Below, one piece after another: positions 21,911-46,681 of a stretch of DNA of 64,000 nucleotides; the stretch's first letter is position 1; each line of letters begins with the position of its first letter. The notes beneath the pieces are model-generated. The model was not told the DNA's origin. It saw nothing but the letters and a program-made list of their open reading frames with translations, and searched no databases. The position numbers and the translations under genes were made by a program. This stretch comes from Lachnospiraceae bacterium (lineage in GTDB: Bacteria; Bacillota; Clostridia; Lachnospirales; Lachnospiraceae): the NCBI GenBank assembly GCA_029062895.1, contig JAIDPF010000069.1, positions 1 to 64,000 on the forward strand, written 5' to 3'.

Positions 21911-21919
21911 CGCCATTGG

Positions 21920-21996
21920 TTCTGTCCTTTTGCCTGAGAGATCGGCATCTCTGCCTTACACCTTCGGCGCTCACTAAATGAGGCTCTCCAGAAGTT
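21920..21996 (-). ncRNA. glycine riboswitch (single aptamer visible)
   Basis: Minus strand: CTGGAGAGCCTCATTTAGTGAGCGCCGAAGGTGTAAGGCAGAGATGCCGATCTCTCAGGCAAAAGGACAGA, matching the glycine aptamer core. Confidence 0.93.
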
Positions 21997-22010
21997 ATAT
22001 TTTCCTGTCA

Positions 22011-34687: not shown

Positions 34688-34922
34688 GGCATGCTACTCA
34701 AATAATAATCTGTGCATGTGCCGCTGTACGGAAATAAGAAATTTTAAACATTCCTGATCTAAGTTGTGAAAAGCGGACGCAAACGGGGCAATTCGCCGTC
34801 CATGGCTCAGTTGCCCCGTTTCGGAACATCGTGTTCCGAAATTGCTGACTATTGGAAGGAATGTTAAGAATTTCTAATTTCCTTCCAATGCACATACACA
34901 GATTATTATCGAGCAGCTTGCC
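34688..34922. repeat. ~235-bp multi-hairpin palindrome (element C)
   Basis: Outer arms GGCATGCTACTC-AAATAATAATCTGTGCATGTG vs reverse complement GGCAAGCTGCTCG-ATAATAATCTGTGTATGTG; second stem GGAAATAAGAAATTTTAAACATTCC; inner hairpins AAACGGGGCAA/TTGCCCCGTTT and CGGAACatcgtGTTCCG. Confidence 0.92.
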
Positions 34923-36522: not shown

Positions 36523-37005
36523 TTAAATTGATTTCACTAAAAACATTTCCATAGGTTGTGCATATTCAGCAATATCTATCACAAAACCGCCACAATCCTT
36601 ATAACCTAATTTCCTATAAAAATGCTGAGAACTTTCATCAACCTGTGTTGAAGTCAATATCATTCCATATCCTTTTGATTTCATATCCTGCTCCCAGAAA
36701 TCCATTAACTTTTTTCCATAACCCATATACTGATAATTCCAATCTATAAACATCATAGTACAAAACGGAGTATTATCCCAAAACAAATTGTATCGTAAAA
36801 GCCCTATCGGAGTATCATCAATTAGCAGCACATAGCCTCTTTTATCACGAACCTTGTTTTCAAACTCCAGCTCTGGTAAATGCTTATCAAGACTATACCA
36901 AAAATCTTTATCCTCAATTTGAACATATCTAATATATATCATAGCATATCTCTCCAAATTCAAGTTTGTTAGTGCAATTATAACCTGTTTTTTATGGGTA
37001 CACAA
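36523..37005 (-). CDS. GNAT family N-acetyltransferase
   Basis: MFIDWNYQYMGYGKKLMDFWEQDMKSKGYGMILTSTQVDESSQHFYRKLGYKDCGGF. Confidence 0.9.
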   Translation of the reverse strand: MCTHKKQVIIALTNLNLERYAMIYIRYVQIEDKDFWYSLDKHLPELEFENKVRDKRGYVLLIDDTPIGLLRYNLFWDNTPFCTMMFIDWNYQYMGYGKKLMDFWEQDMKSKGYGMILTSTQVDESSQHFYRKLGYKDCGGFVIDIAEYAQPMEMFLVKSI

Positions 37006-37082
37006 TTCCGAAAAGGAATTATTTTTATTATAATCTGCTTACGGCAAGCGCACAATTTTAAATGAAAAATTACCAAAAAATC

Positions 37083-37454
37083 TGGACAACAATATTTTAA
37101 TGTGTTAGGATAATGATAACTTAAGGGAAGGGGTGAAAGGATGAAGAGATAATTTACTTTTGATTACATGAAGTTTTTTCAGTATGCATAATCAGCACGC
37201 ATACTGTTTTACATGTTGCCAAAAGTGGATTATGTTCTCATAACCTTCTTTTATGTATATTATAATGTATAATTTTAAATATTTATATATAAAATTGATT
37301 GGAAAGCGATGATTGCAATATCATCCCTCCAATGCATGAGGTTATAGTATGTAATGGAACTGTTTGGCAGCGAACAGTTCTTATTTTTTTACTTATTACT
37401 ATACCATGTCAGTAGGAAAACAAGCGCGAACGAAGTGATCTATAGTCAGGAGGA
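37083..37454 (+). promoter_or_regulatory. putative antibiotic-responsive attenuator leader of ABC-F gene (promoter, MKR uORF, hairpins, terminator)
   Basis: TGGACA-N17-TAGGAT; SD + ATGAAGAGATAA at 37141; hairpins 37157-37225 and 37298-37333; terminator at 37357-37390. Confidence 0.65.
37357..37390 (+). terminator. leader terminator GAACTGTT-tggcagcg-AACAGTTC-TTATTTTTTT
   Basis: Perfect 8-bp stem plus T tract upstream of the ABC-F start codon. Confidence 0.88.
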
Positions 37455-38987
37455 ATGTATATGTCTCAGATCAGTGTAAATAACCTTACTTTTCATTATG
37501 AGGGCAGTTTCGATAATATCTTTGAAAAAGTGTCATTTTCTATTGATACAGATTGGAAATTGGGTTTTATCGGCCGTAACGGAAAAGGAAAAACAACCTT
37601 TTTAAATCTACTTCTGGGGAAATACTCTTATGACGGTTCCATAGATACGACCGCAGCATTTGATTATTTTCCATATAGAATAGAACGCGCCAAAATGCAG
37701 CTTCCCGCCTCTGAATTTATTGACACGTTAAAGGACGGATGCGAAGAGTGGCGCGTGATCTGTGAACTGACACAATTAGGGGAAAGCGCCGAACTTCTTT
37801 ATCGGCCTTATATTACCCTGAGTTTTGGAGAGCAGACCAAAATCATGCTGGCATGTTTATTTTCCGGCGAAAATAATTTTCTGCTTATTGATGAACCAAC
37901 AAACCATTTAGATTCCGCTTCCAGAGAAATGGTCAAACAATATCTGGCTTCCAAAAAAGGATTTATACTGGTATCCCATGACAGGGATCTACTGGATGCT
38001 TGTATCGATCATGTGTTAGTTCTGAACAGGCAGACCATTGAAGTGCAAAAAGGGAATTTTTCAAGCTGGTGGGAAAACAAACAGAGGCGGGATCAATTTG
38101 AACAGTCAACAAATGAAAAGCATCTCAAAGAGATCAAAAAACTAAGACAATCCGCGTCGCGCACATCAGAGTGGGCAGCCCAAAACGAACGTACAAAAAT
38201 CGGCTTTGATCCCAGAAAAGAACCGGATCGATGCGCGGGCACAAGGTCCTATATCGGTGCAAAAACCAAAAAGATGCAGAGCCGGGTAACGCAACTGGAG
38301 ACTCGCATCCAAAGGGAAATTGAAGAAAAGGAAGGTCTCCTGAAAGATTTAGAACTGCCGGCAGATCTGAAAATAGTACCGCTGATACACCACAAACAGA
38401 CACTTGTAAATATCAATCACTATGGTTTGAAATATCAGGGTCGAGAAAATCCTGTATTTACCGATTTGTCATTTACCATTTGTCAGGGAGACCGCATTGA
38501 CCTGCATGGAAAGAATGGCTGCGGGAAATCAACAGTTGTCAAAATGATTTTACAAAAAGCCGGTTTATACAACGGCGATCTGAGCGTTTCAGAGGAAGGC
38601 GTATGTGAAATTGCGTCAGGTCTTGTGATCTCCTACGTCAGTCAGGATACCTCTTTCTTAAAAGGAAACATTCAGGAATTTTGCGAAAAACGCCATTTGA
38701 ACCAGAGCTTATTTTGTTCTATCTTAAGACAGCTCGACTTTGACCGTGTACAGTTCGTTAAAAAAATGGAAGATTATTCGGAAGGACAGAAAAAAAAGGT
38801 ACTGATCGCCGCCAGTTTGCTTACTCCTGCGCACCTTTATCTATGGGATGAACCTTTAAACTATGTAGATATTTTTTCAAGGATGCAGATTGAAAAATTA
38901 CTTTTGAACTATCAGCCGACGATGCTGTTTGTGGAGCATGACGTTATGTTCCGTGAGAAAATTGCCACAAATACCATTACATTGTAG
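37455..38987 (+). CDS. ABC-F type ribosomal protection/translation factor (Lsa/Vga-like)
   Basis: Two ABC domains, no TM; IGRNGKGKTTFLNLLLG, LIDEPTNHLDSASREMV, HGKNGCGKSTVVKMIL. Confidence 0.9.
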   Translation: MYMSQISVNNLTFHYEGSFDNIFEKVSFSIDTDWKLGFIGRNGKGKTTFLNLLLGKYSYDGSIDTTAAFDYFPYRIERAKMQLPASEFIDTLKDGCEEWRVICELTQLGESAELLYRPYITLSFGEQTKIMLACLFSGENNFLLIDEPTNHLDSASREMVKQYLASKKGFILVSHDRDLLDACIDHVLVLNRQTIEVQKGNFSSWWENKQRRDQFEQSTNEKHLKEIKKLRQSASRTSEWAAQNERTKIGFDPRKEPDRCAGTRSYIGAKTKKMQSRVTQLETRIQREIEEKEGLLKDLELPADLKIVPLIHHKQTLVNINHYGLKYQGRENPVFTDLSFTICQGDRIDLHGKNGCGKSTVVKMILQKAGLYNGDLSVSEEGVCEIASGLVISYVSQDTSFLKGNIQEFCEKRHLNQSLFCSILRQLDFDRVQFVKKMEDYSEGQKKKVLIAASLLTPAHLYLWDEPLNYVDIFSRMQIEKLLLNYQPTMLFVEHDVMFREKIATNTITL

Positions 38988-46439: not shown

Positions 46440-46632
46440 TGGAGCGTTCCGCTCCTGTATCATAACAGGCAGGTTTCCCGGCTCACAGATCATCGCTTAT
46501 CCAACTGCCTTCCCGGTTTCCCAGTGGCGCTTCAGCCGGACGCTCCCTGCTTACGGTGACGAGATCGCGCAGGATTTACACCTGCTTCCCTTTTCACCAA
46601 TCCAAACCGCATTTTGGTTAGATTGACACCTG
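46440..46632 (-). ncRNA. cobalamin (AdoCbl) riboswitch
   Basis: Minus strand: GGGAAGCAGGTGTAAATCCTGCGCGATCTCGTCACCGTAAGCAGGGAG...GCCACTGGGAAACCGGGAAGGC...GATGATCTGTGAGCCGGGAAACCTGCC. Confidence 0.93.
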
Positions 46633-46681
46633 ATATGTTCTGTATTTAATTGAATTATCTGTTGCGGTTCAGCTACTCATC

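Follow-up and report, generated by a model that had tools for sequence, protein, structure and literature searches.

A conserved three-codon reading frame and three exclusive helices point to ribosome-mediated attenuation of an Lsa-like ABC-F gene in Lachnospiraceae

Ribosome-mediated attenuation is a known mode of control for ARE-ABCF genes, and it has been described for the ABC-F genes msrD and vga(A) as well. Leader peptides that sense macrolides act through the nascent chain. In vmlR of Bacillus subtilis (an ARE2 ABCF), the upstream open reading frame (uORF) MIN lies in an anti-antiterminator hairpin and is followed first by a second (pause) hairpin and next by an intrinsic terminator, with an antiterminator as the alternative fold (PMC9226507). 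In cplR of Clostridioides difficile (an ARE1 ABCF), the uORF MR[I/M] lies in a 5′ hairpin ahead of an antiterminator/terminator switch, and the terminator hairpin hides the Shine-Dalgarno (SD) sequence of the gene (PMC10201436). The corresponding uORFs are MK[L/Q] in vmlR2 and MAGN in LsaA (PMC9226507, PMC10201436).

The leader described here precedes an ABC-F gene in a window of 64,000 nt (the whole stretch of DNA analyzed, from a Lachnospiraceae bacterium) and has the architecture demonstrated for vmlR and cplR: a short uORF with its own SD near the 5′ end, an anti-antiterminator hairpin that contains this uORF, and an antiterminator that excludes an intrinsic terminator. Based on sequence and comparison, we estimate a probability of roughly 0.87 that it controls an ABC-F gene of the antibiotic-resistance type by ribosome-mediated attenuation of transcription. 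The likeness to vmlR, which includes the three-codon uORF, is one of element order rather than alignment; the uORF is M[KR]R instead of MIN, the gene is Lsa-like instead of ARE2, and no counterpart of the SD-hiding hairpin SL-4 was identified in the window. Some relatives carry an MRI or MRM uORF as in cplR, but the terminator here ends ~65 nt before the SD of the gene instead of hiding it. The leaders of lsa(A) (PMC10201436) and plasmid lsa(E) belong to the same broad ABC-F group and also have a short uORF, yet these read MAGN and MYNFSC*, respectively, and the conserved arms of the Lachnospiraceae element were not seen in the one lsa(E) leader examined. No description of the Lachnospiraceae leader was found in the literature searched, and papers beyond that search could hold one. 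In Rfam, positions 37080-37465 yielded no match at gathering score, the best hit at relaxed E-value (0.71) being an unrelated snoRNA. The kind of attenuator is already known; by sequence, its Lachnospiraceae version appears new and is unlisted in Rfam, with drug induction as a predicted property. The elements of the locus, all on the plus strand, are as follows.

37083-37111, plus strand: promoter found by scan, −35 TGGACA, 17 nt, extended −10 (TG) TAGGAT, conserved in position
37124-37133, plus strand: SD region of the uORF, AGGGAAGGGG, from sequence
37141-37152, plus strand: uORF ATG AAG AGA TAA (MKR*), the proposed sensor, conserved with its SD among leaders
37141-37162, plus strand: 5′ arm of the long hairpin P1, including the uORF and ATAATTTACTTTTG, from RNAalifold
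37180-37206, plus strand: apical hairpin of P1, CAGTATGC/GCATACTG, an inverted repeat (37180-37187/37199-37206)
37217-37246, plus strand: 3′ arm of P1 and 5′ strand of the antiterminator, TGCCAAAAGTGGATTATGTTCTCATAACCT, near-invariant in relatives
37298-37332, plus strand: second hairpin, ATTGGA..GATGAT/ATCATC..TCCAAT, from folding and an inverted repeat
37339-37369, plus strand: 3′ strand of the antiterminator, AGGTTAT..ATGTAAT..AACTGTTTGGCA, overlapping the 5′ arm of the terminator
37356-37390, plus strand: intrinsic terminator found by scan, GGAACTGTTTGGCAGCGAACAGTTCT + TATTTTTTT (hairpin 37356-37381, then U-tract)
37448-37453, plus strand: SD of the ABC-F gene, AGGAGG, from sequence
37461-38987, plus strand: ABC-F ribosomal protection protein (Lsa-like; 508 aa), identified by NCBIfam models, PDB match, and motifs

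An earlier note on this DNA, made from the letters alone, had listed a promoter, SD, uORF, two hairpins, and a terminator, all of which were recovered at the positions it gave. Its attribution of these elements to ribosome-mediated attenuation of the ABC-F gene is well supported by the comparative evidence on uORF, helices, and conservation presented below.

Judged by its sequence, the regulated gene encodes an ABC-F protein of the antibiotic-resistance type, from which we infer resistance itself. The protein scored 439.8 bits against the NCBIfam model for ribosomal protection-like ABC-F proteins (NF000355, cut-off 380). Among named ARE subfamilies, its best match was Lsa (NF000167), at 614 bits; this is under the curated cut-off of 750, and we hence call it Lsa-like. 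The CplR model gave 173 bits, marking CplR as distant, and the closest PDB chain was Lsa(A) on the ribosome (7nhk, E 2e-111). The translation retains two intact Walker A motifs and two intact DEP (Walker B) motifs. The likely start is the ATG at 37461, located 7 nt 3′ of the AGGAGG, rather than the ATG at 37455 of the annotation and open reading frame list. The distance of ~65 nt from terminator to gene given in the earlier note holds relative to the annotated start.

In the proposed mechanism, expression of the ABC-F gene probably requires that a ribosome be stalled by an antibiotic on the three-amino-acid uORF. Without drug, ribosomes would translate MKR and depart. P1, the anti-antiterminator, would then lock up the uORF together with its SD and the 3′ arm, and the transcript would end at the terminator, near 37385-37390. 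An inhibitor of early peptide-bond formation (by analogy, a pleuromutilin, lincosamide, or streptogramin A) would hold the ribosome on the uORF, covering the 5′ arm of P1. The freed 3′ arm GCCAAA...ATAACCT could then pair with AGGTTAT...TTTGGC as it emerges and capture the 5′ arm of the terminator, so that polymerase would read on into the ABC-F gene, whose product would relieve the block. Induction by phenicols is unlikely for an Lsa-like (PLSA-type) factor. Within this scheme, the promoter, the uORF, the three exclusive helices, and their conservation are established by sequence and comparison, and uORF translation, drug stalling, readthrough, and resistance via the ABC-F protein are predicted steps.

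Conservation of the leader was evaluated across relatives drawn from whole genomes and species-level contigs. The same leader was found at 72 of 101 homologous ABC-F loci; in the protein tree it spans most of one large Lachnospiraceae clade, with some losses, and since 15 of the 101 loci have no recognized leader the switch is dispensable, which counts against the model. A uORF of the form M[KR][RKIM]* with an SD occurred in 63 of 98 leaders as compared to 0.4% of Markov shuffles, a count that is a minimum because a few minus-strand loci were wrongly oriented, which can only lower it. The position of the stop codon was retained even in variants such as MQR, MK, and MKE. Promoter scores of ≥10/12 were obtained for 59 of 69 leaders against 2% of shuffles, and in most relatives the −10 box ends 28-32 nt 5′ of the uORF ATG, the usual promoter being TTGACA-17-TRNAAT; the TGGACA-N17-TAGGAT promoter proposed in the window thus has a conserved placement. 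The 3′ arm AAAAGTGGATTATGTTCTCATAAC recurred unchanged at dozens of loci where the encoded protein shares only ~70% identity with that of the window.

A three-residue uORF had been considered an unusual sensor for this locus, but three codons are the usual length for ARE-ABCF attenuators (vmlR, vmlR2, cplR). A second candidate, MKFFQYA* at 37168, can be set aside, as its ATG lies within the P1 stem and the frame is not conserved among relatives, its length ranging from 1 to >30 codons. In two leaders (L032, L033), loss of the in-frame TAA has lengthened the uORF to MRLIIYF, with a stop within the conserved CTTTTGA.

The uORF might instead sense a shortage of charged lysine or arginine tRNA, or a general slowing of translation, as in attenuators of amino-acid biosynthesis, given that the second and third codons almost always specify basic residues (MKR, MRR, MKK, MRK). 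However, codon 3 can be Ile, Met, or Glu, and one leader stops after MK. Of the 42 loci read outside the window, 39 have a ribosome-protection ABC-F gene behind the covariance-model hit, and none has an amino-acid gene there. Moreover, cplR also has a short basic uORF, and its inducers are retapamulin and lincomycin. We thus consider amino-acid sensing very unlikely.

An alignment of 37 complete leaders displayed three mutually exclusive helices, namely P1, the antiterminator, and the terminator, and the leader of the window folded more stably than 100 of 100 shuffles (z = −3.7). In P1, the uORF region pairs with the 3′ arm GCCAAAAGTGGATTATGTTCTCATAACCTC through a 14-bp core (37149-37162/37220-37233), and RNAalifold extends the helix such that the SD of the uORF is hidden: in the closed state, both the minimum free energy fold and the RNAalifold consensus pair AGGGAAGGGG back onto CCTTCTTTT (37244-37252), and in the consensus one base pair of this SD-sequestering helix shows 10 double changes. 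P1 had a probability >0.8 in 66 of 68 leaders, and the repressed structure places 98.1% of cells in standard pairs, with double changes at five pairs. The apical hairpin varies in sequence across relatives and retains its pairing in most. The second hairpin, GATGAT..ATCATC, is conserved in only part of the relatives, and could possibly act as a pause hairpin, by analogy with SL-2 of vmlR, or as the apex of the antiterminator.

Once P1 is open, the same 3′ arm (37217-37246), whose alternative partners are 37141-37162 and 37339-37369, can form ~24 bp with GAGGTTAT...ATGTAAT...TTTGGC. The pairing blocks are GCCAAAAGT, ATTATGT, and ATAACCTC with, respectively, AACTGTTTGGC (one bulge), ATGTAAT, and GAGGTTAT. 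The alternative pairing of AGGTTAT with upstream ATAACCT in the earlier note is therefore present (37240-37246/37339-37345), but it is only one end of a far longer helix: TGCCAAA 37217-37223 with TTTGGCA 37363-37369, which reaches the terminator, and the ATTATGT/ATGTAAT block were missed in that first reading. In the 37 leaders, 96.9% of cells in the antiterminator helix were paired as opposed to 36-50% in slid controls, and double changes were present. The duplex between the 3′ arm and the downstream strand in cis was more stable than shuffles (median z −3.6; z < −2 in 62 of 68 leaders), and where the 3′ arm has diverged, a matching downstream strand is kept in most leaders (e.g., L045, L059, L101, L102). 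The terminator is built from GGAACTGTTT on the antiterminator strand, its pairs covary, and 98.9% of its cells are paired in relatives; it was the sole terminator detected by scan, with 0.3 expected in shuffles.

Pairs within the near-invariant 3′ arm yield little covariation, which counts against the model; the near-invariance is explained by the need of one strand to fit two partners. A sister group from the same genus provides independent support: seven related ABC-F leaders (L007-L009, L011-L014) contain a uORF that reads MKNR (four codons), MKIR, or MKY and have a terminator of other sequence (e.g., GATCCACTCCGG...), and their 3′ arm GCCGGATTGGATTAT pairs with their own terminator arm TGATCCACTCCGG in 7 of 7 leaders (z −2.3 to −4.8). 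Arm and terminator have therefore changed together. It is very unlikely that the leader is instead a riboswitch for a small molecule, or a terminator alone with an incidental uORF: the nearly invariant, aptamer-like 3′ arm is accounted for by its two partners, no Rfam riboswitch matched even at relaxed E-value, and relatives conserve the start and stop codons of the uORF along with its SD.

The order of folding is the main weak point of the attenuation model. When a ribosome occupied the uORF, the top helix of the antiterminator formed before the 3′ arm of the terminator was made in 40 of 40 leaders, compared to 5 of 40 without a ribosome. Equilibrium folding favors the completed terminator over the antiterminator in the window, where T was 0.98 despite a ribosome placed on the uORF. 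The terminator likewise wins in 35 of 40 leaders, and still in 28 of 40 when the footprint is enlarged. Antitermination would therefore have to be kinetic, i.e., decided by folding order.

The output could also be mainly translational, the SD of the ABC-F gene being hidden or freed and the terminator being secondary. Three leaders lack a terminator (L103, L107, and L116, the last recognized by eye), and their antiterminator strand, which contains TTTGG, instead forms a hairpin with the ABC-F SD. Two further leaders (L054, L123; uORF MKK) carry a natural deletion that joins the 3′ arm to the ABC-F SD, 94 nt 5′ of the ABC-F gene, such that P1 itself covers this SD, and cplR combines both layers (PMC10201436). 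Against this, the window and ~51 of 69 leaders (including L038, L044, and L059, added by eye where the motif filter missed TTCCGGC) have a terminator with a U-tail that overlaps the strand of the antiterminator, and the ABC-F SD of the window lies ~65 nt past this terminator. A mainly translational output thus seems very unlikely for the element as a whole. L054 and L123 represent a minimal translational attenuator in which P1 directly hides the SD, and this fusion is as expected if occupancy of the uORF opens P1, as the ribosome-mediated attenuation model holds. The output was seemingly lost in L104 and a few other leaders.

To delineate the distribution of the element, a covariance model was searched against genomes at several taxonomic ranks. 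The window's genome contained one site, apart from its own antisense echo. The family Lachnospiraceae yielded matches in 46 of 397 genomes (42 of 334 genera), and the order in 13 of 392. In a phylum-wide draw of 399 genomes, no genome other than that of the window had a match. The downstream gene was an Lsa-like ABC-F for 12 of 12 order matches checked, 22 of 25 family matches, and 5 of 5 congeners. If the attenuation model is correct, this would represent an antibiotic-responsive RNA absent from Rfam that spans 42 of the genera sampled within a single family of gut bacteria, with a sensor sequence kept almost fixed by a single strand having two partners to fit, and would suggest intrinsic, drug-inducible ribosome protection in part of the Lachnospiraceae. 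Mobile spread was considered and rejected: the two arm motifs occurred in no viral contig, plasmid and phage relatives of the ABC-F protein were <60% identical, and the single plasmid lsa(E) leader examined has another uORF.

Three complete switches precede genes other than ABC-F, located at about 1440-2250 in leader direction: a GNAT acetyltransferase (L134, G464:C284), a PRK06761-like P-loop protein fused to a GNAT domain (L137, G582:C17), and a short remnant followed by a metallophosphoesterase (L135, G461:C9). In addition, a PRK06761-like P-loop or GNAT gene lies ≤~25 nt past the ABC-F stop at six loci (L042, L046, L047, L005, L097, L103), and such gene pairs possibly form an inducible resistance operon. 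Independent captures of the switch at L134 and L137 were rejected in favor of ABC-F loss from such an operon, since congeners have ABC-F there and GNAT or P-loop genes follow ABC-F elsewhere; this explanation does not extend to the metallophosphoesterase at L135. Many of these named records are metagenome-assembled genomes, so that misassembly may have contributed. It is conceivable, if rather doubtful, that the M[KR]R leader acts as a stand-alone sensor, re-wired in evolution to work through a terminator, an SD-hiding hairpin, or a P1/SD block, and that the GNAT and PRK06761-like genes following or replacing ABC-F in the operons it controls are unrecognized drug-inducible resistance or ribosome-rescue enzymes. 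These operon partners would provide a short list of genes likely acting under the same drugs. In the window, a divergent GNAT acetyltransferase gene adjoins the ABC-F promoter (36523-37005, minus strand); the GNAT located behind the switch in L134 had no match at this locus.

Other regulatory candidates were recorded alongside the leader. The plasmid lsa(E) of Enterococcus faecalis (NZ_OM574793.1; L129:341-361) has its MYNFSC* uORF, with a strong SD, ~360 nt before the gene, and uORFs of this M..[FV]SC* type with a strong SD were also found at L006, L016, L017, and L020; at lsa(E), this uORF is possibly part of an attenuator of a clinically spread resistance gene. Elsewhere in the window, the minus strand carries a glycine riboswitch aptamer (21912-22001), a cobalamin riboswitch aptamer (46451-46648), and, between two minus-strand genes, a TwoAYGGAY RNA (Rfam RF01731, 119.6 bits; 34723-34889).
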